A DNA stretch of 64,000 nucleotides, taken from Sphingobacteriaceae bacterium. Its GTDB lineage: Bacteria; Bacteroidota; Bacteroidia; Sphingobacteriales; Sphingobacteriaceae. The stretch is taken from NCBI GenBank assembly GCA_947479815.1, contig CANKAT010000006.1, positions 1 through 64,000 of the forward strand, in the 5' to 3' direction. Below are positions 6,332 through 56,152 of the stretch, piece by piece. The notes below the pieces were generated by a model. It did no database searches and was not told the origin of the DNA. It saw only the letters and a program-made list of their open reading frames with translations. Each line of letters begins with the position of its first letter. Positions within the stretch are counted from its first letter, which is position 1. The position numbers and the translations under genes were made by a program.

Positions 6332-7291
6332 TTATAAGAATAAGATTTGTTTCGTTTCGGGGATGATTCCTAGTTTGTGTGCTTCGTTAAAGAAAGTTTG
6401 AACGGCCTTCCTTCCCACCTCACCTAAATCAATTGAAAATTTATTGACATAAAGTTCAATGTGTTTGTTGATCACCTCTTTACTCATTTCCTGTGAAAGT
6501 GAGCAGATAAAATCCATTCCAGATTCCGGATGATCAAAAGCATAGTGAACACTTCGTTTAATGATGCGGTTTACTTTTTGTTTTATATTTTCAGGAAGCT
6601 CTCTTTTAACCATAATACCACCTAAGGGAATTGGTCCCTGAGTCAAATCTTCCCAAAATTCGCCTAAATCGATAATCTTTTTCAGACCTTTTTCCTGGTA
6701 AGTGAAGCGATTTTCATGGATGATCACGCCCATATCGATCTGATGATTCAATAAGGCTGATTCAATTTCAAAGAATTTCATCTCGATCTTATTTTTCGCT
6801 TCAGGGAAGGCCAGGCTTAACAGACAATTGGCGGTGGTGTATTTGCCGGGAATGCCAATGCGGAGGTCTGAGGTTGGAGGTCGGAGGTCGGAAGTCTGAG
6901 GTCGGAGGTCGGAGGTCTGAGGTTGGAGGTCTGAGGTCTGAGGTCTGAGGTCGGAGGTCTGAGGTTGGAGGTCTGAGGTGGGAGGTCTGAGGTTTTGCAA
7001 ACCATCATTTGAAATATAGTCTTCATTCTCGCAAATGAGTAATGGCCCAACTCCAAATCCAAGAGCACTTCCTGAATCAAGCAACACATATTTTTCAGTG
7101 AGATAGGCATAGGCATGAAAGCTCAGTTTGGTGATATCGAGCTCAGCCCGGAAGGCTTTTTGATTAAGTGTTTCAACATCATCAAATACCACATCGAAAC
7201 TCAAGCCTTCAGTATCGATTTTTTGATGGATCATGGCATCAAAAATGAAGGTATCGTTAGGGCATGGAGAAAATCCGAGGCTTAGTTTCAT
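6332..7291 (-). CDS. mqnD: 1,4-dihydroxy-6-naphthoate synthase with in-frame heptamer insert
   Basis: MqnD cleaves cyclic dehypoxanthine futalosine to 1,4-dihydroxy-6-naphthoate in the futalosine route to menaquinone. The periplasmic-binding-protein-like fold is recognisable from the start (LGFSPCPNDTFIFDAM), TKLSFHAY, GIPGKYTTAN and IHENRFTY. Family members are about 275 residues; this one is 319. The extra 44 residues (about 101-144) are PQTSDLR-type heptads encoded by 19 tandem 7-bp units, placed just before the conserved GIPGKYTTAN. The start overlaps mqnB's stop by 4 nt. A change of one or two units would shift the frame. Confidence 0.9.
   Translation of the reverse strand: MKLSLGFSPCPNDTFIFDAMIHQKIDTEGLSFDVVFDDVETLNQKAFRAELDITKLSFHAYAYLTEKYVLLDSGSALGFGVGPLLICENEDYISNDGLQNLRPPTSDLQPQTSDLRPQTSDLQPQTSDLRPQTSDLRPPTSDLRIGIPGKYTTANCLLSLAFPEAKNKIEMKFFEIESALLNHQIDMGVIIHENRFTYQEKGLKKIIDLGEFWEDLTQGPIPLGGIMVKRELPENIKQKVNRIIKRSVHYAFDHPESGMDFICSLSQEMSKEVINKHIELYVNKFSIDLGEVGRKAVQTFFNEAHKLGIIPETKQILFL
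6861..6993. repeat. Heptanucleotide tandem array inside mqnD (19 units)
   Basis: Nineteen consecutive 7-bp units on the plus strand, mostly CTGAGGT, CGGAGGT or TGGAGGT. Since 3 units equal 21 bp, the protein shows a 7-residue repeat (P-[PQ]-T-S-D-L-[QR]). Only multiples of three units keep the frame. Confidence 0.95.
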
Positions 7292-7932
7292 GAATCAAAA
7301 AGATGTATCAGCGTATCATTTAACGTATTCACTGCAAGTTCAATATTCCAGTTTGCCCGGTTGCGTCGTTCCATAAAATTTGAAATTGCCCGGATCTGTA
7401 TGCACGAGGTATGGGCTTGTTCACAGGCATAAAAAAAGGCTGCACCTTCCATACTTTCAATTTCTGGATTGAAATGGGAAATGGTTTTTGAAATGGAAAG
7501 CTCATTTCCATGTACTTTATTAACAGTAATTGCTTTAACTTCTTGAAGGTTTCGGTGTTTTGTAAATAATGGGTTGGGCTTTGGTAAATACGTGCTCTTA
7601 CCAAGTCCGAGCATTTCTATAGATAAAAATTCGTCTCCATCTTCAGCACCTAACTCAACAAATGTATCTTCTTTAACCAGGCAAATAGCTCCGGGTTTAA
7701 GATTGGGATTAAAACTTCCTGCTATGCCGGCGTTTATAGCCAGGTCAAAATGTTCTTCTGAAAAGGCTTTACCCAGTGAAAATGCAGTGGGTACCATTCC
7801 GGCACCTGTTACGAGTACTTTTATTTGGTAATTCCGTATGGTTTTTTCATGAGGGGGCACATCGCTAAAAGAGAAATGTGTCAGAAAGGGTTCTATCTCG
7901 GCCCTAGTTGCGGCAACAAGTAGTATTTTCAT
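7288..7932 (-). CDS. mqnB: Futalosine hydrolase
   Basis: A 214-residue nucleosidase of the MTA/SAH-nucleosidase fold. It removes hypoxanthine from futalosine, the step before MqnC in menaquinone synthesis. Visible motifs are VTGAGMVPTAF (residues 41-51), NAGIAGSF near 87 (purine-site glycines) and ESMEGAAFFYAC near 158, where the glutamates bind the ribose. The last residue assignments are from family knowledge. The 4-nt stop/start overlap with mqnD indicates translational coupling and supports the pathway call for both. Confidence 0.88.
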   Translation of the reverse strand: MKILLVAATRAEIEPFLTHFSFSDVPPHEKTIRNYQIKVLVTGAGMVPTAFSLGKAFSEEHFDLAINAGIAGSFNPNLKPGAICLVKEDTFVELGAEDGDEFLSIEMLGLGKSTYLPKPNPLFTKHRNLQEVKAITVNKVHGNELSISKTISHFNPEIESMEGAAFFYACEQAHTSCIQIRAISNFMERRNRANWNIELAVNTLNDTLIHLFDS

Positions 7933-8068: not shown

Positions 8069-8581
8069 TTAAAAATAAAACCCTAAATGTGTTGCCACAT
8101 TTGTCATATCAACCACGATTGGTTCTTTCTGACCATCTGATATAAACAATCCACATAGATCGAAGTTATTCAGATCTATAATAGTATAAGCAGAATTAGC
8201 TGTTTTAAATCGGAGGTATCTTGCATTAATAACCTCTATAACCTTGATTTTAGGATAATATTTTTTTAATACATCTCTTGAATACTTCATCTGGTAAAAG
8301 CAATCATGTTGTATGCTGTCAAATATTTTTTTACTGTTTATTTCTATATATTTTTTAGATTGAACTTTATCGGTATTAAAAAAAACTGCAGCCGGAAAAT
8401 CTATGGTGATAGTATCTTTAAAGCTGCTGGATGGTTTTCCTTGTATGATTCTGACTGAATCAAGTTTAGTGGGTAGAACCTCTTTATTTTGTATATCATT
8501 TGTGCAGGAATTTGAAAGTAGAATGAACACCAGTAGCGGGAGGTAGTTTATCAGGCCTTTAATTCCATATTCAATCTTCAT
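8069..8581 (-). CDS. Lipoprotein, function unknown
   Basis: A 170-residue protein with a lipoprotein signal (lipobox LSNSC, Cys about residue 26 from the chosen ATG at 8581). The frame extends two codons further to a TTG at 8587, but the ATG is the simpler choice. No domain recognised. It is separated from the DUF5777 gene by a likely terminator and is probably its own unit. Confidence 0.65.
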   Translation of the reverse strand: MKIEYGIKGLINYLPLLVFILLSNSCTNDIQNKEVLPTKLDSVRIIQGKPSSSFKDTITIDFPAAVFFNTDKVQSKKYIEINSKKIFDSIQHDCFYQMKYSRDVLKKYYPKIKVIEVINARYLRFKTANSAYTIIDLNNFDLCGLFISDGQKEPIVVDMTNVATHLGFYF

Positions 8582-8648
8582 GTCCAAAATTTAAATTTTT
8601 GAAAGGAGCTTACCCAAAAAATAGGTATCTCCGTGTAATTATTAATTG

Positions 8649-8688
8649 AAAAACCAACCTTCCTTTTTATTGGGTCGGTTGGTTTTTT
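8649..8688 (-). terminator. Rho-independent terminator after the DUF5777 gene
   Basis: AACCAACC (8652-8659) pairs with GGTTGGTT (8677-8684) across a 17-nt loop. It has an A/T run on each flank and lies just downstream of the leftward DUF5777 gene. Confidence 0.65.
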
Positions 8689-8719
8689 ACAGATAATAAA
8701 TTCTAATTCTATACTAAAT

Positions 8720-9694
8720 TTAGTAGTTCCATAACCTAGTTATATTAAATCCAATAAGGAATTTACCGCCTTTAACCTTTGTGCCATCTGCTCGAGTATA
8801 GTTTAAAGGGCTATTGTTGTTATAAAGATTGTTTCTTTGCTGATTTAGTGTAGAATAGTTACCCATAAACAATTGGAAGGAGTGGTTACTGGTGTTAAAT
8901 TCAAGCCCGAATGACAAATTAGGATCAGGATTTTTAGTATTGTGCTTGGTAAGCGGTTGATCGTAATTAACAATTACAGAAGTTACTGGAGTTAATTTGT
9001 ATCTGCCTGATATCGCCATTGCAAAATGATCGAATTTCATCTCTCTGAAAATCTTTGTTCCAGTACTATCATTTTTTGTGTAGAATCCATTCACTGAGTT
9101 CTGATGAGACATACTGGGGGCAACTTGTATTGAAAATTTTTGTGTTACTTTTCTAGCTATGATTAGTTGATTGAAGGAAGAAATACGTTCGGAATTGAAT
9201 TTGAAAATACTGTTATCCACATCTTTTCGTGTGTCATAGGCTAAATTTCCATAATAGGTTACACTGACAGGATATTTTCCATTCGTTTGTTTAATGATAG
9301 AGTATTTGGCATTTCCGTCCCATAACATATGATCTTTAGCAATTCCAAAACCGATATACAAATTTGTAATTGGAGCATAGTTTACACCGAGCCTGATGTT
9401 GGAGGGGGCAAAGAAACCCCAGAAATCATCATATCCCTTGTTTACAGTTCCAAATCTGTGCATAATATCCATTTCGAATGTTCCCTTAACGGGTACCATA
9501 ACAGTTTGGTTATCAATAATCCAGACACTCTCAAAAGTATTTTTGACTGGTTTGACTTTTGCACGTTTTACTGAAGTATCAGCAACGGCTGTGCTATCCT
9601 GTGCGTATAGACTTGCTTGATTAAGCAAGATACATGCAACCAAAAATCCGGTTAAAACGAACAGGCGCTTGGGTAAATATAGTAGTGGTTTCAC
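8720..9694 (-). CDS. DUF5777-type beta-barrel outer-membrane protein
   Basis: A 324-residue protein with a signal peptide (about 1-31, ending at YAQ) and then alternating polar/hydrophobic beta strands. The sequence style (FWGFFAPSNIRLGVNYAP, FGIAKDHMLWDGNAKY) matches the DUF5777 barrel family, which in Bacteroidota often neighbours YceI and cytochrome-like lipoproteins. It ends a leftward run with the CX4CH lipoprotein (19 nt away) and yceI (16 nt further). Probably an outer-membrane component of the same respiratory or electron-transfer system. Exact function unknown. Confidence 0.75.
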   Translation of the reverse strand: MKPLLYLPKRLFVLTGFLVACILLNQASLYAQDSTAVADTSVKRAKVKPVKNTFESVWIIDNQTVMVPVKGTFEMDIMHRFGTVNKGYDDFWGFFAPSNIRLGVNYAPITNLYIGFGIAKDHMLWDGNAKYSIIKQTNGKYPVSVTYYGNLAYDTRKDVDNSIFKFNSERISSFNQLIIARKVTQKFSIQVAPSMSHQNSVNGFYTKNDSTGTKIFREMKFDHFAMAISGRYKLTPVTSVIVNYDQPLTKHNTKNPDPNLSFGLEFNTSNHSFQLFMGNYSTLNQQRNNLYNNNSPLNYTRADGTKVKGGKFLIGFNITRLWNY

Positions 9695-9713
9695 ATTCTT
9701 AGGTTTAGGTCAG

Positions 9714-10097
9714 TTAATTGTTAGGAGCACCATTTCTTATCCAGTCATACACTTTTTGCCTGTCTGTGGCAGAAGGAATATATTCCTTCATTTCTCCATT
9801 GATCATAGTGTATATTCTGCTGTCTTTGGGCACAATTGTGTTCACAAATCCGCCATTTGTAACTTCTTGGTATGACGTGGCCGTTGCTAAATATGGTTTG
9901 TGAGCGCCTGAAACATGACATCCGGTTAAAGCACATTTGGTATTAAAAATAGGTGCCAAATCTTTACTGAAACTTACAGATTGCGGAGGTCCATCCGGAT
10001 CAATTGCCCCTTCAGGTATGATTGTATCCTTATAGCATCCGGTTATACCGATCACCATCGTAAAAATGAAACCGGAAAAAATTAGTAGCTTTTTCAT
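9714..10097 (-). CDS. Lipoprotein with CX4CH putative haem motif
   Basis: A 127-residue lipoprotein (lipobox ITGC, Cys about residue 21). It carries one C-A-L-T-G-C-H motif near residue 56, after the SKDLAPIFNTK lead-in usual in periplasmic haem-c domains. The spacing is CX4CH rather than CXXCH. Conserved GAH-PY and a C-terminal VYDWIRNGA segment are typical of small cytochrome-like domains of Bacteroidota. It lies between yceI and the DUF5777 barrel with very short gaps. Whether haem is actually attached cannot be told from sequence. Confidence 0.72.
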   Translation of the reverse strand: MKKLLIFSGFIFTMVIGITGCYKDTIIPEGAIDPDGPPQSVSFSKDLAPIFNTKCALTGCHVSGAHKPYLATATSYQEVTNGGFVNTIVPKDSRIYTMINGEMKEYIPSATDRQKVYDWIRNGAPNN

Positions 10098-10113
10098 AGT
10101 AATCCCTATTTAA

Positions 10114-10908
10114 TTACTTGTTATTGAAGTTCATATTACATTCGATGTCAATTTTATCTGAAATACTGGTACTTGTTATCCCAAAATCTCTACAGTTAAA
10201 TTGAAACTTTAACTGTAATCCGAAAACATCATACGGAGCTGCGGTAGTTCCTACAGTTGCTCTTTTTATATATTTTAATTTGCCAACTAGTGTTTTTGTT
10301 ATTGGAGCTCCTAGTGTTCCCTTCCATGTCAGACTTAAAGTAACGATGTAGTCATTACTCAATGGATCTAATTTTACTTCTGTTGATTTGATTTTTGCCA
10401 GATTAGTTATTCCCAGATTTTGAGTTCCTGAAATTATTGCGGTAGTGCCTAATGCAGAAATATTACAACCTGCATCACGTCCAGGTTCTCCTGTATTGGA
10501 AGTATTGATCTGCACATATCCGTTGATAAATGTTTTTGTAGGATCACTTTCATTAAATTCCCATGAATTATCTTTAACTGGCTGACCTGCTGTAGAGTAT
10601 GTGGTCATTTCTGCATCAATAACTTCATGCATGCCAAATTGGTTAAATCGGCCGGTAAGCAAACCTGCTGCTCCAACATAGCTTGTTGACCACATCACGT
10701 TAGAGTGTGCTTTATCTAGTTTCCATTCGTTGCTATTACCTACCGTCATATTTCCTGGAAGGTGAGTATTTGAACCACGTGTGATCACAGGACCCGTAGT
10801 GGCGGCGAGAGGAATGGCTTCGTTTTCATTTGTACAACTGGCAATGTATCCAGTTACGCTGACGATAAATAGGAATATCATCAGTGTTTTGTTGTTAAAT
10901 GTTTTCAT
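10114..10908 (-). CDS. YceI-like lipoprotein
   Basis: A 264-residue protein with a lipoprotein signal (lipobox IASC, Cys about residue 25) and a YceI-type lipocalin-like domain beginning at WKLDKAHSNVMWS and SYVGAAGLLTGRFNQFG. YceI domains bind isoprenoid or quinone-like lipids in known structures, which suits the neighbouring NrfD/Fe-S module. First gene of a three-gene leftward unit; a CRP/FNR-like palindrome lies about 100 nt before its start. Confidence 0.82.
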   Translation of the reverse strand: MKTFNNKTLMIFLFIVSVTGYIASCTNENEAIPLAATTGPVITRGSNTHLPGNMTVGNSNEWKLDKAHSNVMWSTSYVGAAGLLTGRFNQFGMHEVIDAEMTTYSTAGQPVKDNSWEFNESDPTKTFINGYVQINTSNTGEPGRDAGCNISALGTTAIISGTQNLGITNLAKIKSTEVKLDPLSNDYIVTLSLTWKGTLGAPITKTLVGKLKYIKRATVGTTAAPYDVFGLQLKFQFNCRDFGITSTSISDKIDIECNMNFNNK

Positions 10909-11003
10909 ATATCTGAGGTTAAAAATTGAATAAGTGGTTAAGTATTTATACCCCTAAGTTCCTATTAACTTGCCGCAACTAAAGTGATTATTATTAAGGT
11001 TTT

Positions 11004-11021
11004 AAGTGACAGATATCACTT
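11004..11021. promoter_or_regulatory. CRP/FNR-family-like palindrome upstream of yceI
   Basis: AAGTGA-N6-TCACTT is a perfect inverted repeat containing GTGA-N6-TCAC, the core of CRP-type sites. It is 96-113 nt before the yceI start. A similar but FNR-like site precedes the cytochrome c gene of the same cluster. No promoter box could be placed beside it. Confidence 0.5.
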
Positions 11022-11179
11022 TGTTGACCCGTACAATTAATACAATTTAATTTTTTAAGTATTTGAAAATCAGTAGAATATTAAGACAGATATCAGATTG
11101 AGAATAATTCTAGGATAACAATTAGTTTTTGATTTCTAGGATAGGTTTTCTATGGAATACTTATTATCAATTTAGGAGA

Positions 11180-11683
11180 TTATCTTTTTTTAAAATTGTT
11201 TAACACAAAGGTTAATAGTAGCAAACATGAAAATGTTCCAAGATTTAAAATAAGGCTGATGTTATAAATTTTCATATTATTTCTGACCATATTTATATCT
11301 GGGGAGTTAGAAATTAACTGCATCAGTTGATTTTTAACTAGTAAACTAAATATGACTAGGCTATGCATCAAACTAATCATTGTTTTTTTACTTAATGCCG
11401 GTATCCAGAAAAAGACAGCTAAAATTCCCCAACCGGTTAAGTAAGGATTTTGAATAGTTTCTAGGGAATAACCTGGATATAGGTTTCTTACTATTAGCCC
11501 CAAGTATAAAGTGCCAACTAAGGCGTATCCAAATGATAATAGTTGCTTTAGTCTGTCCTTGAAATCTTGCTTTAAATTAAAACATCCGCTAGCAAAAAGA
11601 ATTACAACATAAATTAATGGGAAGCCTGAAAAAAATGCAATTAATTCAAGTTCTTGTATGTATGCAAAAAAACTATTATCCAT
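11180..11683 (-). CDS. Polytopic membrane protein, function unknown
   Basis: A 167-residue protein with about five transmembrane helices (roughly 13-33, 48-65, 81-98, 102-120, 142-162) and no conserved motif I recognise. Same strand as the flanking electron-transfer genes and 115 nt after the secreted/anchored 301-aa protein, so it may belong to the module, but the link rests only on position. Confidence 0.65.
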   Translation of the reverse strand: MDNSFFAYIQELELIAFFSGFPLIYVVILFASGCFNLKQDFKDRLKQLLSFGYALVGTLYLGLIVRNLYPGYSLETIQNPYLTGWGILAVFFWIPALSKKTMISLMHSLVIFSLLVKNQLMQLISNSPDINMVRNNMKIYNISLILNLGTFSCLLLLTFVLNNFKKR

Positions 11684-11798
11684 TAAGTGTAATAATCTTA
11701 AAAATGCTAATTACTAACAGGGAATATGACTTATGGAAGTTCTTCCTAATTCTTTAAAACAGGAGATTTTTTTCTGCTTTCTTAATTTAAATAATGTT

Positions 11799-12704
11799 TC
11801 ACACTTCCTTCTCCGGAACAGCTAATCCCAGTTTCTTTATTTGAACAATTTGTGTGATCAGATAAATGATAGTACCCCATACACCTATGAAAATAGAATA
11901 GGCCATGATCAATAACCATATTGGCGTTCTGAATCTGGTAGTCCATAGTGTTCTTTGCTCAAAGAAACTAGTATTTGGTTTTACAACAATTCCCCATGGT
12001 ACAGTTTTTTCAACGATCAGGTTCCCATATAGATCATTATCCTGGATTTTAGCTACCAATACTAAATTTCCTTTTTGGTCGCCAGGTAAACTATCTTTAG
12101 TAAATTCTAAGCTAGCAGTACCACTGGAGTCTGTTGTGTAGGTTTCCTCATCGCCAGCAGAAAGAATGCCCCCCAGTCTTTGAACTCCAACTTTCATTTC
12201 CACATCAGCTGCTGGAACCCATACAGAATTAGTGAGTTGCATTACCTGAACAGTCACATTTCTGATTCCTTCTGTTGTTAGGGTGTCTAGTTTAATTTTA
12301 GATTTTGAAATTGCAAGTTCTGCAGCAATTTCATCTTCTTTGCCTAATGCTACGGCAATAAATGTATGCTTTGAACTTTCAGTCCAGGCAGTTTTTAATG
12401 AAAGAGGAAGAAAACTCTTAGCATTTCCATTTTTATCAGTACTTATTTTACCGATTAGATTTTCAGGTAAATTACTGTTCAGATACAATTGAAACACCTT
12501 ATTTTTTAAGGGCTCTATTTTTCTTCCCGTCTTCAATGAGTTTTCAAGTATCAGGTATTGTACTCCATTATTTATTGTGAAATAATTGAGTTTTACCAGC
12601 TCTTCAGCTTCTTCTTTTTCTTGTGCCGATACCTTGTTTATTACTACAAAAAATAGGAATTGTAGTAAAAGGAAAGCGTATTTATTTATTTTCAGCTTTT
12701 TCAT
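11799..12704 (-). CDS. Periplasmic protein with C-terminal membrane anchor
   Basis: A 301-residue protein with a signal peptide (1-27, VSA-Q), a long extracytoplasmic beta-rich region, and one transmembrane helix near residues 262-288 followed by a short cytoplasmic tail. Two segments (about 70-110 and 150-215) read like Ig-like or CarboxypepD-regulatory-like folds (TDKNGNAKSFLPL, TTDSSGTASLEFT). It follows the nrfD gene by 43 nt, so it is a good candidate for an accessory periplasmic subunit of that complex. No redox motif seen. Confidence 0.68.
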   Translation of the reverse strand: MKKLKINKYAFLLLQFLFFVVINKVSAQEKEEAEELVKLNYFTINNGVQYLILENSLKTGRKIEPLKNKVFQLYLNSNLPENLIGKISTDKNGNAKSFLPLSLKTAWTESSKHTFIAVALGKEDEIAAELAISKSKIKLDTLTTEGIRNVTVQVMQLTNSVWVPAADVEMKVGVQRLGGILSAGDEETYTTDSSGTASLEFTKDSLPGDQKGNLVLVAKIQDNDLYGNLIVEKTVPWGIVVKPNTSFFEQRTLWTTRFRTPIWLLIMAYSIFIGVWGTIIYLITQIVQIKKLGLAVPEKEV

Positions 12705-12747
12705 GAGAATATAATTATTTTTTAAAGGCTATGAATTTTTCATGAGC

Positions 12748-14088
12748 TTATTCAGGTTGTTTTGTGGGCGGTAAGCTCATGCAGGTTTCATCTTGTTCAG
12801 TTATAGTTTCCTGGATTGGAATGATCGGATAAATTCTTGCAAAAAATGTTATCACTAATAAAGAACCTGCGAGGGTTGCCATCGCTATTGCCCATTCTTC
12901 CCAGCTGGGAAAATAATGATGAAACTTTGCCGGCGCATCTTGCATAGGTAAGAATGGATGCAGAAGAGTTGGAGTAACAATCAGGTATCTTTTGAACCAT
13001 GCACCAATTACGATCATGATGCCTGCAATAAAAACGGGTAGCGGCTTTCTTCCTTTTTTAAAGACCAGAATAAGGATCGGGATGACCATACCAACAAGGA
13101 TGGCGAACCAAAACAGAGGAGCAAATTCACCTGTGAACAAACCTTTTAAATGCGCTTCTTCACCAGTTTTCATTTTAAATGCAGGAACTAGATATTCATT
13201 GATATTGAAATACAAATAAAGCAGAGATAGCATAACTACTATTCTTCCCATTTTTTCAAAATGCATTTCAGTGATATACCTTTCTAGTTTATAGAATTTG
13301 CGGAAAATAAACATTGCAACCACAACACCTCCGGCCCCAACAAGAAATGCACCAGATATAAAGTAGGCACCAAAGTTTGTGCTGTCCCAACCTGGCCTGT
13401 AGGTGGTTGCAAACAACCAGGAGGTTACTGTGTGAATGCTAAATGCAACTGGGATAATAGTTATACAAAGAATTGTTATTGCCCTATCACTTACTTTAAA
13501 CTGTTCTGAAGTTCCTCTCCAAAATGAGCCCTGAAAAAGGTATAATTTATTCAGAATACTACTTGATTGCGCTTTGAATTTGATCATGATTTTTAGATCA
13601 GGAAGCAGTGGAAGGTATAGTAGAAGTAAACTAATTACAAAATAAGTACTAATTACAATTACATCCCACATGATAGGGGATTGAATGCGGCCGTGTAAAA
13701 AAAGGTTCAGCATTCTGTCGGGGCGCCCCATATCAATAATGATGATCAGAGAAGCAAATACAATGGCCGACACCGCTATTATTTCTGCTATTCTAGTCAA
13801 TGGTGTAGCCCACTTCATATTGGACAGGCGAAAGATTGCGGTGATGAGTGATCCTACCAGACTAATAGCTACAAAGAATACAAAGTTTGAAATATAGATT
13901 CCCCATGATACATAGTCGCCCATGTTGGTTACAGCAAGTCCTTTTGAGAGCTGTCGGTAATAGGCAAAAGCACCAAATAAACAGATACTGATGAGTGTGA
14001 ATGTCCAGATCATACCAATCTTTCCAAATTTTTTGGGAAGAAGATCCTGGATGATTTGATCTTTTGTTAAAGATGGTAAATTTTCCAC
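12748..14088 (-). CDS. nrfD: NrfD/PsrC-type quinone-interacting membrane subunit
   Basis: A 446-residue inner-membrane protein with about ten transmembrane helices, of the NrfD/PsrC/ActC family that exchanges electrons between quinone and a periplasmic Fe-S subunit. Motifs include DYVSWGIYISNFVFFV (near 58-73), IDMGRPDRMLN (near 122) and SIHTVTSWLFA (near 220), all typical. It starts 10 nt after the Fe-S gene, so the two are a NrfCD-like pair. No molybdopterin, multihaem or ActB-like catalytic gene is nearby. Confidence 0.88.
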   Translation of the reverse strand: MENLPSLTKDQIIQDLLPKKFGKIGMIWTFTLISICLFGAFAYYRQLSKGLAVTNMGDYVSWGIYISNFVFFVAISLVGSLITAIFRLSNMKWATPLTRIAEIIAVSAIVFASLIIIIDMGRPDRMLNLFLHGRIQSPIMWDVIVISTYFVISLLLLYLPLLPDLKIMIKFKAQSSSILNKLYLFQGSFWRGTSEQFKVSDRAITILCITIIPVAFSIHTVTSWLFATTYRPGWDSTNFGAYFISGAFLVGAGGVVVAMFIFRKFYKLERYITEMHFEKMGRIVVMLSLLYLYFNINEYLVPAFKMKTGEEAHLKGLFTGEFAPLFWFAILVGMVIPILILVFKKGRKPLPVFIAGIMIVIGAWFKRYLIVTPTLLHPFLPMQDAPAKFHHYFPSWEEWAIAMATLAGSLLVITFFARIYPIIPIQETITEQDETCMSLPPTKQPE

Positions 14089-14098
14089 TTGTCTAATT

Positions 14099-15028
14099 TT
14101 AATGAGTTTGTTTATCAGCAGAGCTTAGATTTTCTAACCCTGATTCATAAGGGAAATTACGGCCAACTGGTGGTAGATAATAAACGCTAGGTTTTGTTCC
14201 CAGGTCTTCCATTAATCGGTAACCGGCTTTATCTTTTATTAATTCACTGAATCGGAATGTTTCTGCGCCATTTGTAACAGAATCTTCATTTAAGTCGCCA
14301 AACATGAAAACACCATTTGGGCATGCGCTTACACAGTGGGGTAATTCACCCATTCGGGCCATATCAGGGCAGAAATCACATTTACTGACAGTTCCAATTT
14401 TCTGTGGCATGCTGGTTTCGCAGGAATAAGGTTGTGCAGCCACGCTTTCTTCAAGAATTGGTTCTCCCCAATTAAATACACGGGTTGAATAAGGACATGC
14501 AGCCATACAAAAACGGCATCCAATACAACGATCACTATCGATTAATACCAATCCATCCTGTCGTTTAAAGGTTGCATCTACCGGACAAACTTTTACGCAA
14601 GGCGGTTGATCGCAATGCATACAGGTAGTTGGTTGCCAGAAAGGAGCACTTTCCTCTGCTTCTTTCATTGAAAGAACTTTTATCCAGTTTTGTCCCGGGT
14701 TTAATGAGTGGGCATGGTTACATGCTTCCTGACACTTTTTTAAATTTTTACAACGGGCCAGATCTATAACCATTACAAATTTTTTGCCTTCTATTCCTTT
14801 CCTTTCCTCACTGTTTGTTAAGGGAGGCATTTGAGGAATGGGTTTTAAAAAGGCTTTATCTATTTCGATAATTTCACCATCTACAGAGAGTAGTTTTACT
14901 GTCTCACCGCTTAGCTCGACCTTTTCTTCTGGTGCAAAAGGATTGTTTCCACATCCTGTGGCAGTTGCGGCTGCAGTAACCAGCAGGCCATTTACAAGAA
15001 AGTCTCTTCTTGAGGTATTATTTTCCAT
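14099..15028 (-). CDS. Tat-exported 4x[4Fe-4S] ferredoxin-like subunit (NrfC/DmsB type)
   Basis: A 309-residue electron-transfer subunit. The N-terminus has a Tat motif (SRRDFL, residues 6-11) and a cysteine at 26 that could be a lipidation site. Four cysteine clusters follow: about 93-107 (CKNLKKCQEAC), 136-148 (CMHCDQPPCVKVC), 168-178 (CIGCRFCMAAC) and a CDFC...HCVSAC set. This is the full complement for four cubane clusters feeding the NrfD partner. The linker before the ferredoxin domain (residues 43-61, VKLLSVDGEIIEIDK) resembles the small protein encoded next door. Confidence 0.9.
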   Translation of the reverse strand: MENNTSRRDFLVNGLLVTAAATATGCGNNPFAPEEKVELSGETVKLLSVDGEIIEIDKAFLKPIPQMPPLTNSEERKGIEGKKFVMVIDLARCKNLKKCQEACNHAHSLNPGQNWIKVLSMKEAEESAPFWQPTTCMHCDQPPCVKVCPVDATFKRQDGLVLIDSDRCIGCRFCMAACPYSTRVFNWGEPILEESVAAQPYSCETSMPQKIGTVSKCDFCPDMARMGELPHCVSACPNGVFMFGDLNEDSVTNGAETFRFSELIKDKAGYRLMEDLGTKPSVYYLPPVGRNFPYESGLENLSSADKQTH

Positions 15029-15052
15029 AGCAATTTTATCTATCGATCTGAT

Positions 15053-15283
15053 TTATTTTTTGACCCATTTTTTCAGTTCTTCATCACTGATTTTTCTTGC
15101 TGAAGAAGTCAATAGTTTTTTATCAATTTCAACCAGCTTGCCATCTTGAGTCAACATTTTTATTGTCTCGTTTTTTTCCTCCTGCTTATCCACAAATATT
15201 TTCATGAACGTAACAGATGATAGAACCGCAGCACCCCAAATCAGAAATTTTTTTCGGGTGGAGGTTTTTTGTGGATTTTCCAT
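15053..15283 (-). CDS. Small Tat-like anchored protein related to the Fe-S subunit linker
   Basis: A 76-residue protein with a Tat-like or membrane-anchor N-terminus (STRKKFL then a hydrophobic helix, about 14-30) and a short C-terminal part IKMLTQDGKLVEIDKKLL. That part mirrors VKLLSVDGEIIEIDKAFL in the adjacent Fe-S subunit. It has no cysteines. It ends 24 nt before the Fe-S gene. I infer a structural subunit of the complex that shares the linker fold; the family is not one I can name. Confidence 0.7.
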   Translation of the reverse strand: MENPQKTSTRKKFLIWGAAVLSSVTFMKIFVDKQEEKNETIKMLTQDGKLVEIDKKLLTSSARKISDEELKKWVKK

Positions 15284-15312
15284 AAAATGGTTTGTCAGGG
15301 TTTCAGGGAAAA

Positions 15313-15350
15313 GAAAAGACCAGTCTTCAAATGCTGAGACTGGCCTTTTC
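15313..15350 (-). terminator. Terminator or attenuator between cytochrome c and the small protein gene
   Basis: CCAGTCT (15320-15326) pairs with AGACTGG (15337-15343), extended by AAAAG/CTTTT flanks. It sits in the 82-nt gap inside the leftward cluster, so it may set a higher level for the cytochrome than for the genes behind it. Confidence 0.6.
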
Positions 15351-15365
15351 TTCCGGTATAAAATA

Positions 15366-15770
15366 TTATTTAAGAGTTCTGATGAAATTTACCATAGCCC
15401 AACTTTCATCTGCATCTGGTAATTTCTTTTTAAAATTGGGCATATCATCACGGCCTTCTCTTATTTTATAAAATAAGGAGCCATCAGGTTGAGCCTGAAA
15501 ATCTGCTTTTGAAAAATTACCTGGTTCAGTTTCAAGCTTGGCAGCTTTTGAACCATCGCCTAATCCTTTTGCACCATGACAAGATTTACAATGGGTACTA
15601 TAAAGCGCTTTTCCCTCAGCAATTGATGCAGGGTCAGAAGCAACTGGATTTTTCATTTTTTTGAAATTATCAGGAACAGGCCATGGTTTATTCTGACTAT
15701 TTTTCATTGAAGTAAAACTGAAACCGGTAAAGCTCATGGCTATTGCAATTATTAATGCGATCTTTTTCAT
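15366..15770 (-). CDS. Monohaem cytochrome c
   Basis: About 134 residues from the preferred ATG at 15770, which begins a clean signal peptide (MKKIALIIAIAMS). The open frame runs 13 codons further, to 15809. One CKSCHG haem-c motif lies near residue 62, with a downstream methionine in DDMPNFKK as likely sixth ligand and the WAMVNFIRTL C-terminal helix of class I cytochromes. First gene of the leftward electron-transfer cluster; an FNR-like palindrome lies about 133 nt upstream. Confidence 0.86.
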   Translation of the reverse strand: MKKIALIIAIAMSFTGFSFTSMKNSQNKPWPVPDNFKKMKNPVASDPASIAEGKALYSTHCKSCHGAKGLGDGSKAAKLETEPGNFSKADFQAQPDGSLFYKIREGRDDMPNFKKKLPDADESWAMVNFIRTLK

Positions 15771-15902
15771 AATTATATTTTTTGATTTTAATTTCGTAAT
15801 TGAGTTCAAAGGCTTATTACATGCTATAATTTGTATCTCTTATTACTAATAAAAGTATAGATAACAGGATTTCTATTCTATGTTTGAGGTCAGCTGTAAA
15901 TA

Positions 15903-15914
15903 TGATGCTAATCA
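15903..15914. promoter_or_regulatory. FNR/CRP-like palindrome upstream of cytochrome c
   Basis: TGAT-N4-ATCA matches the core of FNR sites (TTGAT-N4-ATCAA), with the outermost bases A and C instead of T and A. It is 133 nt before the cytochrome start. Short motif, so chance is possible. Confidence 0.4.
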
Positions 15915-16187
15915 CATTTTGTAATTTAAATGTCATCAGAATCGATTTTGATGTTAATTCTGTTTAAAATGAAGCGTATTGTCAATTTTGCCAGTATTTT
16001 TTATGCCTAAATAATTAGAATATAAAACGGAATGCTCATGTTAACTGAAGTAATAAATCGGCATTATTGCGTTTAATCATCTTAGCTTTCTATTAATTTT
16101 TTCATTTTGCGATACCTAGGGCATTAGGCTCATCATTACCATTATAACTGATTTATAATTCAATTAAACCATGCTGGTTAGTTTGAG

Positions 16188-53801: not shown

Positions 53802-53932
53802 TCTGAATTCTCACTGATGAATCTGTCTTTTTAATTCGTTTATTAAATCCAGTGGATTTGTGCTCTTTTTTTAACAAATTCAAAGAATCGTTTTTAATTT
53901 AGTATACCATAAGGAAATATGAAATATTGCCT

Positions 53933-56152
53933 ATGAACAAAGCAAATATGCTTCTTAAAAATAAGTTGATCAAAAAAATACCTTTAGGCTTATTTCTGTT
54001 TTTCATTTTATTGTATGCAGGTTGCCAGATGGCTAAACAGCAGTCCAGAACTTGGAGTACCTACAAGGCGGATGCAAATAGCAGTAGTTTTTCTCCTTTG
54101 AAGCAAGTTAACAAGTTAAATGTTACCGACTTAGAATTAGCCTGGACATTCCCCTACCAGGATGCTCCTCCAGGTGCAAAAACCTCTAGAAGTGAAGCAA
54201 ATCCAATTGTAATAGACGGTGTGATGTTTATTTCATCAGCCCGTAATAGGATTTATGGCATTAATGCAAGTAATGGCAAACAAATATGGTCTTTTGATCC
54301 GTTTAACGGCGGATTAGGTGGAGGGTATAGTCGTGGAGTTACCTATTGGGAAGATGGAAATGATAAAAGAATTCTATTTACTGCTGGAAATCATCTCTTT
54401 GCGGTAGATGCCCGATCAGGCAAATTAATTTTGTCATTTGGTCAGAATGGGAAGGTGAATTTAAATTTTGGTATGAGGGGCAATCCTGATAAGATATTTG
54501 TTGCACCTACCTCACCCGGGATTATTTATAAAGACCTATTGATTCTGGGTACATCAGTTTCAGAATTATATGGCGCCGAGCCTGGTTACCAGCGTGCCTA
54601 TAATGTTAAAACTGGGAAGCTGGTTTGGACTTTCCATACTATTCCACATCCTGGAGAATTCGGATATGATACCTGGCCAAAAGATGCCTGGAAATATTCA
54701 GGAGGTGTTAACGACTGGTCTGGAATGAGCCTTGATGAAAAACGGGGGATGGTATTCCTTGCATTAGGATCGCCCTCTTATGATTTTTACGGCGGAGATC
54801 GAAAGGGCCAAAATTTATTTGGTAACAGTGTGGTGGCTCTTGATGCTCAAACTGGGAAATATATCTGGCATTTTCAAACTATTCATCATGACCTTTGGGA
54901 TTATGATCTGTCGGCACCTCCAAATTTAGTATCTGTTGTTCATGATGGAAAAAAAATTGATGCGGTAGCACAAACCTCTAAAATAGGATTTATTTATTTG
55001 CTCAATCGCGAAACTGGGGAACCCTTATTTCCAATTGAAGAGCGCCCAGTACCTGCTTCAGATGTGCCCGGAGAAGAAGCCTGGCCAACTCAACCATTTC
55101 CATTAAAACCAGAGCCTTATGCCCGCCAGCATATTTCATTGGATAATTTGAGTAATTTTTCAAAGGAGTCAAATGATGAATTATTGAAAAGATTTAAGTC
55201 CATAAGATATGAAGGTCTTTTTACTCCACCTTCCTTAAGAGGCAATGTCAATCTTCCTGGAACTAGTGGAGGCTCAAATTGGGGGGGAGGTGCTTTTGAT
55301 CAGACAAGCGGGATAATTTATGTTAGGGCTACAAATACCCCCGGAGTGAGCCTCATGAAAAAAATGGAACCTGAAAATGAATCCGGTACCCCATTTACCC
55401 GGGGAAAAGCCCTGTATGCTACGCATTGCCAGGCTTGTCATGGGATAGATAAGAATGGGGATGCAGATTATCCCTCATTAGCAGGCCTTAAAAGCCGAAT
55501 GACTGAAGAAGAAGTATTAATTAAAATAAGAGGGGGTGGTGGCAGGATGCCATCTTTTGCAAATATAATTGCAGGAAAGGAAGAGGCTATTATTTCGTTT
55601 CTATTTAATAATGATTCACAATCAGCAAGGGAAATTAATTTTATGAAAGAAATAGCAAAAAGCGAATCAGCGAATACGGAAGCGGATAAATATAAACTAA
55701 GCACCCCCGTCAGGTACCTTGATATTTTATCTAATGGTAAATTCCGTGATGTAAAAGGGCGCTATGGAATTAAACCTCCATGGACGACCCTAAATGCAAT
55801 TAACCTTAATACTGGTGACTATGAATGGTCTATTCCATTAGGTAATTATCCACATTTGCAGGAAAAAGGGGAGCCGGAAACAGGTTCCGAAGGGAATACC
55901 GGGCCAATTGTAACTGCCGGTGGCCTTGTATTTATAGGTGCTAACATGGGTGCAAATAATTTTAAGTTTCGGGCTTATGATAAAGATACAGGTAAGTTGT
56001 TATGGGATACTCAAATTCCAGCAAATACCACATCCAATGCATCCACATATTTTAGTGGTAAAAAACAATATATTGCTGTTTCAGTGGCAGGTGATTTAAC
56101 TAATCCTGCAGGGTATATTATGGTTTATGCTTTGTTTGATAAGAAAAAATAA
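53933..56152 (+). CDS. PQQ-dependent dehydrogenase with internal cytochrome c domain
   Basis: A 739-residue lipoprotein (lipobox YAGC, Cys near residue 31 of the chosen ATG). It carries an eight-bladed quinoprotein propeller with tryptophan-docking blades, plus an inserted class I cytochrome domain (CQACHG near residue 500, followed by methionine-bearing GGRMPSF). Known homologues oxidise aldoses or alcohols in the periplasm and pass electrons to the quinone or cytochrome chain. ATG 53933 is preferred over TTG 53927. PQQ biosynthesis genes are not in the window. 131 nt separate it from gudD. Confidence 0.9.
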   Translation: MNKANMLLKNKLIKKIPLGLFLFFILLYAGCQMAKQQSRTWSTYKADANSSSFSPLKQVNKLNVTDLELAWTFPYQDAPPGAKTSRSEANPIVIDGVMFISSARNRIYGINASNGKQIWSFDPFNGGLGGGYSRGVTYWEDGNDKRILFTAGNHLFAVDARSGKLILSFGQNGKVNLNFGMRGNPDKIFVAPTSPGIIYKDLLILGTSVSELYGAEPGYQRAYNVKTGKLVWTFHTIPHPGEFGYDTWPKDAWKYSGGVNDWSGMSLDEKRGMVFLALGSPSYDFYGGDRKGQNLFGNSVVALDAQTGKYIWHFQTIHHDLWDYDLSAPPNLVSVVHDGKKIDAVAQTSKIGFIYLLNRETGEPLFPIEERPVPASDVPGEEAWPTQPFPLKPEPYARQHISLDNLSNFSKESNDELLKRFKSIRYEGLFTPPSLRGNVNLPGTSGGSNWGGGAFDQTSGIIYVRATNTPGVSLMKKMEPENESGTPFTRGKALYATHCQACHGIDKNGDADYPSLAGLKSRMTEEEVLIKIRGGGGRMPSFANIIAGKEEAIISFLFNNDSQSAREINFMKEIAKSESANTEADKYKLSTPVRYLDILSNGKFRDVKGRYGIKPPWTTLNAINLNTGDYEWSIPLGNYPHLQEKGEPETGSEGNTGPIVTAGGLVFIGANMGANNFKFRAYDKDTGKLLWDTQIPANTTSNASTYFSGKKQYIAVSVAGDLTNPAGYIMVYALFDKKK

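Follow-up and report, generated by a model that had tools for sequence, protein, structure and literature searches.

What does a quinone-reactive NrfD protein do when no catalytic enzyme is encoded beside it? This question is raised by ten genes on the minus strand (positions 8069–15770) of a 64-kb stretch of DNA from a Sphingobacteriaceae bacterium, hereafter called the window. An initial annotation of the sequence had described nine of these genes as an uncharacterized respiratory-like module, and had suggested a quinone-linked electron conduit reaching the outer membrane. All nine were found in place on the minus strand, and a tenth gene, for a lipoprotein (8069–8587), travels along with them. 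We find that the gene set is a real, conserved variant of NrfD-type quinol:cytochrome c oxidoreductases, undescribed in the literature searched, so that the initial interpretation is partly supported. The explanation that we favor, with about even confidence, is that the set consists of a stripped-down NrfD-type menaquinol:cytochrome c oxidoreductase and an outer-membrane redox cassette, both controlled by a Crp/Fnr-type regulator as part of a regulon for low-oxygen and nitrogen-oxide respiration. The features are as follows.

15366..15770, minus strand: periplasmic monoheme cytochrome c, 134 amino acids from the likely ATG (open frame extends to 15809); Pfam Cytochrome_CBB3, 8e-12.
15053..15283, minus strand: 76-amino acid protein with a twin-arginine translocation (Tat) signal, paralogue of the N-terminus of the iron-sulfur (Fe-S) protein by hhalign.
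14099..15028, minus strand: NrfC/PsrB/DsrO-like Tat lipoprotein of the periplasm, whose ferredoxin-type clusters comprise three 4-Cys and one 3-Cys; the Fe-S protein.
12748..14088, minus strand: NrfD/ActC-like quinone-reactive membrane subunit; PF03916, 117 bits.
11799..12704, minus strand: 301-amino acid protein with two immunoglobulin (Ig)-like domains and one C-terminal transmembrane helix; marker of the module.
11180..11683, minus strand: 167-amino acid polytopic membrane protein, present in 13/35 full-flank loci; in relatives usually immediately before YceI.
10114..10908, minus strand: YceI-type lipoprotein (lipid/quinone-binding fold); PF04264, 35 bits.
9714..10097, minus strand: small c-type cytochrome lipoprotein with a CX4CH heme motif (CX4CH in 49/50).
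8720..9694, minus strand: DUF5777 outer-membrane barrel, 12 strands in the AlphaFold model; PF19089, 247 bits.
8069..8587, minus strand: 172-amino acid lipoprotein accompanying the DUF5777 gene (13 loci; 11/35 full-flank loci).
15902..15915, no strand: Crp/Fnr-type palindrome ATGATGCTAATCAC upstream of the cytochrome c gene; RTGAYN4RTCAY match with the window's best position weight matrix score.
11006..11019, no strand: Crp/Fnr-type palindrome GTGACAGATATCAC upstream of the YceI gene; the other of two RTGAYN4RTCAY matches in 64 kb.

The Pfam matches of YceI and NrfD compare with a cut-off of 23.7 bits and a gathering score of 25.8 bits, respectively, and Pfam likewise backs the 4Fe-4S dicluster domains of the Fe-S protein and the cytochrome c. 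The CX4CH, 76-, 167-, and 301-amino acid proteins had no family match in the Pfam search. The last two had been annotated as membrane proteins; the 167-amino acid protein is indeed polytopic, but the 301-amino acid protein is secreted and has a single C-terminal transmembrane helix. No molybdopterin, multiheme, or other catalytic gene occurs inside the window's gene set, as had been noted.

The gene set is conserved as a unit. A close NrfD is present in 9 of the 121 genomes of the organism's own family. Scanning public genomes added another 47 loci, almost all of them from metagenome-assembled genomes (MAGs) of Chitinophagaceae and Sphingobacteriales and from isolates, Niastella vici and Flavihumibacter among the latter. 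The gene order recurs in ~55 loci of other genomes and is kept across families, which is far beyond chance. Among the 35 loci flanked by 6 kb or more on both sides, the cytochrome c, Fe-S protein, NrfD, and 301-amino acid protein always occur together (35/35), and are joined by the Tat peptide in 33, DUF5777 in 32, the CX4CH protein in 31, YceI in 24, and a lipoprotein of the EB_dh family in 9. In 32 of the 35, DUF5777 is located within 6 kb of NrfD; of the other three, one has DUF5777 at 6.2 kb and two are the sister MAGs L070 and L073. In this pair three multiheme cytochromes (8, 4, and 4 CXXCH motifs; L070 3–7806, L073 3–7816) replace the DUF5777 cassette directly upstream of the module. 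They have an MtrC/MtrF-like match and are adjoined by a 1580-amino acid Big_2 surface protein with a type IX secretion system (T9SS) sorting tail.

We also drew an even, unselected sample of 296 Bacteroidota genomes. The 301-amino acid marker was found in 7 of them, and in all 7 DUF5777 lies within 5 kb (p=0.001 for 7/7 next to the module, with DUF5777 present anywhere in 115/296 genomes). Clustering of all open reading frames of 56 loci brought out no catalytic subunit beside the module in at least three loci; the recurrent extra gene encodes the EB_dh protein, a heme-binding cytochrome lipoprotein. Thus the two halves co-occur across Bacteroidota and no catalytic gene is conserved next to them, and neither of the findings that the initial annotation had named as counting against it was made. 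It had, however, treated the missing catalytic subunit as more unusual than it is: alternative complex III (ACIII), Qrc, and Dsr are known NrfD complexes that also do without a classical one. L060 (14076–20313) and L070 (14544–21178) each have a second, diverged module copy (Fe-S protein, NrfD, 301-amino acid protein, EB_dh, CX4CH, and DUF5777) next to an Fnr-like gene. No paper naming DUF5777, or NrfD together with YceI, was found among those searched.

These counts bear on whether the set is one system or two. An ordinary quinol:cytochrome c module might lie side by side with an outer-membrane cassette for redox or nitrosative stress, the two having merely a regulator in common. The far wider distribution of DUF5777 cassettes (115/296 genomes vs 7/296 for the NrfD module) fits such an arrangement, as do the pairing of the cassette elsewhere with Rieske or diheme partners, the separate promoters with a palindrome at each, and the RIC gene that adjoins the module in L043 and L047. 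Against this, every sampled module genome holds DUF5777 close to the module, and the order of the genes is maintained across families. We consider two independent units improbable.

The quinone half of the module is best understood through NrfD, whose closest solved relatives are the ActC chains of ACIII (6f0k_C, E 1e-43). In alignment with 6f0k_C, ActC residues Ser164, Asp169, and Arg395 correspond to Ser137, Asp142, and Arg367, each invariant (58/58). ActC His139, at the position in transmembrane helix 2 that holds an acidic residue or His, corresponds to Asp119 (56/58), and ActC Asp253 is not kept (Leu225). Ser164 is the serine common to all quinone-binding NrfD-like subunits, and an aspartate at the position of His139 also occurs in DsrP, QrcD, and HybB (PMC8076601). 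Arg367 is equivalent to the gate arginine in the middle of the membrane along the ion path. Judged by its Pfam domain, quinone-site residues, and gate arginine, module NrfD belongs to the NrfD-like quinone-reactive subunits, in agreement with the quinone linkage first suggested. The ActC sequences form one clade (support 100/99) that excludes module NrfD; the outgroup branches are very long and the deep order is unsure. By the favored explanation, NrfD would oxidize menaquinol and probably translocate protons, as has been proposed for ACIII.

The Fe-S protein had been described as having four clusters. Its four motifs are present, but its cluster cysteines number 15, one short of 16, with three complete ferredoxin-type motifs and one containing three cysteines. 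This incomplete motif I is C-x5-C-x3-C (CKNLKKCQEAC) in the window protein and CDGCKKCTEAC in the paralogue of the second module; the Fe-S proteins of the diverged second copies (L060 and L070) keep all four motif I cysteines. In the usual topology of this fold, motif I serves the cluster furthest from the membrane, at the exit to the partner. The loss of one ligand may have turned this distal cluster into a higher-potential [3Fe-4S] cluster. In ActB the [3Fe-4S] cluster sits at the membrane end instead; the genome's own ActB has CIGTRYC in motif III.

The 76-amino acid Tat protein aligns as a paralogue with the N-terminal segment of the Fe-S protein (hhalign 98%, E 3.6e-14); the two probably share a partner, at which the Tat protein docks or is anchored. 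The 301-amino acid protein carries its two Ig-like domains on the C-terminal helix (AlphaFold predicted local distance difference test [pLDDT] 85). The cytochrome c, which has CXXCH and Met conserved in 53/54, is proposed as the electron acceptor of the Fe-S/NrfD pair. Electrons would then flow from menaquinol through NrfD and the Fe-S chain to the monoheme cytochrome c and onward, perhaps by way of other periplasmic cytochromes, to a terminal reductase. This reductase would be encoded elsewhere in the genome, and would most often be clade II NosZ with its own neighboring cytochrome c gene.

Neither the Crp/Fnr-type palindromes nor the link to NosZ had been part of the initial annotation. A de novo search for palindromes in module promoters yielded ATGAY-N4-RTCAT. 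Strict sites number 35 in 34.7 kb of module promoters, as against 5 in the other promoters of these loci (47.4 kb). RTGAY comes out on top of 120 permuted half-sites, and the palindrome is present in 35 of 47 module loci. As the palindrome was derived on module promoters, nosZ promoters provide an independent test. In 20 module-bearing genomes, nosZ-operon promoters contain 13 sites in 5.9 kb, as compared with 6 in 28.6 kb of neighboring promoters (p=1e-6), and 13 of the 20 nosZ loci have the palindrome. The module and nosZ operons of the same genomes therefore have an operator class in common, which predicts a Crp/Fnr regulon for nitrogen oxides. The relaxed form RTGAYN4RTCAY occurs exactly twice in the window, once at each module promoter, and these sites count by position and not by number.

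In the organism's own genome, the nosZ operon (contig 15) has the palindrome between the cytochrome c gene of the cytochrome c–nosZ pair and a divergent Crp/Fnr gene, whose product is the likeliest regulator of the module. No palindrome occurs at the genome's own ACIII-like locus. The strict palindrome is not rare genome-wide (33 sites vs 23 for the control), and four sites are on the 49-kb nos contig. The classical FNR box TTGAN6TCAA is found at module promoters at chance level only. Another clade II organism has TTGA-N6-TCAA sites, and Crp/Fnr control of its nosZ has been suggested (PMC11539149). Covariation between genomes of the palindrome at the module and at nosZ was judged by eye, is suggestive only, and was not used.

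Gene content points in the same direction. Clade II NosZ (scored by TIGR04246 above cut-off) is present in 34 of 41 module-bearing genomes, and in the phylum sample in 7/7 module genomes as compared with 99/296 overall (33%; p=4e-4). NirK, considered as another partner and not retained, is above cut-off in 12/41 module-bearing genomes. One MAG (L047) has the entire module in a single 20-kb stretch together with RIC, HemN, a 412-amino acid membrane protein, a cytochrome c, NosZ, and NosL. This regulatory and genomic link of the module to nitrogen-oxide respiration is new, and makes NosZ the best candidate acceptor, although not the sole one. Membrane proteins of 412–414 amino acids with the motif HAHSHFAFAGW (e.g., L209 12955–14199 and L047 14392–15630) are encoded next to clade II nosZ in 13 loci; they have no Pfam or NCBIfam match, and some loci have the palindrome upstream.

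Several observations weigh against the favored explanation. The association with NosZ is weak in the organism's own family (6/9 genomes with the module vs 38/112 without, p=0.057; NosZ in 44/121), and the association tests ignore phylogeny. NosZ is not obligatory, because five or more module-bearing genomes lack it, including a complete one (G101), and many NosZ genomes have no module. Nearly every genome of the family, the organism's own included, has an ActC-like NrfD of ACIII, and ACIII could feed NosZ. The palindrome is missing from 12 of 47 module loci, and the two in the window deviate from the strict consensus, with ~1.2 relaxed matches expected by chance per 64 kb. Lastly, a scheme for nitrogen oxides leaves the presence of the outer-membrane barrel and of YceI/EB_dh unexplained.

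As a cassette of the barrel, a small cytochrome (or Rieske) lipoprotein, and YceI or EB_dh, the outer-membrane half occurs throughout the phylum. The window's set has this composition, with DUF5777 above its cut-off beside YceI and the small cytochrome lipoprotein. Most DUF5777 cassettes occur without any NrfD; in genomes lacking the module, DUF5777 is accompanied by YceI and a small cytochrome or by a Rieske protein, sometimes next to a diheme cytochrome. DUF5777–YceI cassettes in L122, L125, L134, and L146 have a Rieske lipoprotein in place of the cytochrome. Two NrfD-less cassettes have a GTGAYN4RTCAC palindrome just upstream (L133 8178–8975 and L128 10193), and in L133 a Crp-family gene precedes. 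Homologous cassettes have CXXCH at the position of CX4CH, which marks the latter as a real heme site. The EB_dh lipoprotein, of the family of the heme subunit of ethylbenzene-type dehydrogenases, occurs in 19 loci, where it replaces or accompanies YceI, and has an invariant CX3CH motif. In these lipoproteins (e.g., L060 4831–6174) the motif is CYASCH, an unusual spacing for heme c, and two members have an extra CXXCH.

These parts might form a conduit to the outside, in which electrons from menaquinol pass through NrfD, the Fe-S protein, and the cytochrome c to the CX4CH and EB_dh lipoproteins, and then cross the outer membrane with the help of DUF5777. The co-occurrence of the NrfCD and DUF5777 halves, the lipoprotein or outer-membrane features of every cassette member, and the heme motif of EB_dh are consistent with a conduit, as is the location of the L070/L073 multiheme cytochromes and T9SS surface protein at the cassette's upstream position. 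The barrel, however, was modeled with 12 strands (pLDDT 80), and NanC, OmpG, and Tsx have a similar fold (Foldseek). A barrel of this size would be a channel, too narrow to sheath a cytochrome, and a cytochrome inside it is unlikely. In addition, there is but a single heme per lipoprotein, and DUF5777 cassettes mostly occur without NrfD. Following the lipid cysteine, the lipoproteins (CYKD, CTKND, and CTHKD) have one acidic residue instead of the two in the optimal Bacteroidota surface-export signal C-X-K-(D/E)2 (PMC5080379). The full signal is thus absent from the N-termini of the cassette lipoproteins, which have a partial one only. The conduit that had been proposed at the outset loses ground accordingly, and we regard it as unlikely.

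A barrel of substrate-channel size also suits the opposite direction of flow. The cassette would oxidize a small substrate, either in the periplasm or at the outer membrane, and the electrons would enter the menaquinone pool through the Fe-S/NrfD pair, much as those of cytochrome c3 do through QrcCD. NrfD complexes run both ways, Qrc being an example (PMC8076601, PMC13059093), and the kinship of EB_dh with dehydrogenase heme subunits fits an oxidation. But no oxidizing enzyme is encoded with the set, and co-regulation with an electron-accepting reductase suggests output, so that electron input seems to us quite unlikely.

Returning to the menaquinol:cytochrome c oxidoreductase, we place the barrel, the c-type cytochrome lipoprotein, and YceI/EB_dh as a putative second component within the same regulon, one that is associated with the outer membrane and probably consists of a channel with redox partners on the periplasmic face. 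A substrate channel with periplasmic-face redox proteins, or a lipid- or quinone-binding YceI in contact with a cytochrome, would fit the parts better than a cytochrome inside the barrel. A bolder version, which we hold to be doubtful, is an unrecognized energy-conserving complex dedicated to supplying electrons to anaerobic nitrogen-oxide (mainly N2O) respiration, with the NrfD/Fe-S pair physically extended to the outer-membrane barrel and lipoproteins. The supply of electrons to NosZ in clade II N2O reducers of the Bacteroidota, and any conservation of energy in that step, bear on a greenhouse-gas sink, and the module is a concrete candidate for this supply with a shared operator. It also gives a first context to DUF5777, which is found in over a third of the Bacteroidota sampled.

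Directly downstream of the module (window 6332–7932, minus strand) are genes for a futalosine hydrolase (above the TIGR03664 cut-off, with 160 bits) and a 319-amino acid MqnD-like protein, the latter having no NCBIfam match. They look like the futalosine route to menaquinone, the same quinone that the module would use. The MqnD-like gene contains, in frame, a 7/14-bp tandem array (window 6861–6993) with 19 copies of CGGAGGT, which encodes a NLRPPTSDLQPQTSDL-type repeat. Elsewhere (window 53927–56152, plus strand) is a lipoprotein that resembles pyrroloquinoline quinone (PQQ)-dependent dehydrogenases and has an inserted cytochrome c domain; its scores are under family cut-offs.

How does the module compare with known systems? 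Like DsrMKJOP, it has a Tat-exported Fe-S protein and an NrfD, and DsrO (187 bits) and DsrP (143 bits) are the best NCBIfam matches of these two proteins; both fall short of their curated cut-offs of 200 and 350, and DsrM, K, and J are not beside the module. NrfABCD similarly has an Fe-S/NrfD pair that passes electrons from quinol to a c-type cytochrome in the periplasm, but the NrfC model TIGR03149 scores 116 bits against a cut-off of 377.6, and NrfA and NrfB are not in the cluster. In QrcABCD such a pair mediates electron exchange of quinone with a soluble cytochrome; here the module falls short for QrcC (121 vs 400 bits) and QrcD (78 vs 570), and has neither the hexaheme QrcA nor QrcB. MtrCAB-type porin-cytochrome conduits and Cyc2 share with the module a barrel and c-type cytochromes at the outer membrane. 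A porin-cytochrome conduit has a barrel of more than 20 strands around a multiheme cytochrome, whereas the module has a 12-strand barrel model and a separate monoheme lipoprotein with one heme motif, and no multiheme cytochrome in the window. Clade II nos clusters have the palindrome class and genomes in common with the module, and one shared island (L047); the module normally lies far from nosZ, and NrfD is no recognized nos gene. Membership in Dsr, Nrf, Qrc, and ACIII was rejected on the basis of curated cut-offs, gene content, or the tree. ACIII (ActABCDEF) differs in its pentaheme ActA, molybdopterin-like ActB half, and second NrfD (ActF), none of which is conserved within 10 kb of the module. 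The cysteine is lost in motif I of the module Fe-S protein but in motif III of ActB, and module NrfD is in a separate clade, with an ACIII-like locus elsewhere in the same genome. ACIII nonetheless resembles the module in having a ferredoxin-type Fe-S protein, a monoheme cytochrome c, and no true catalytic site, and its ActC is closest to module NrfD, which keeps the quinone and gate residues of ActC.

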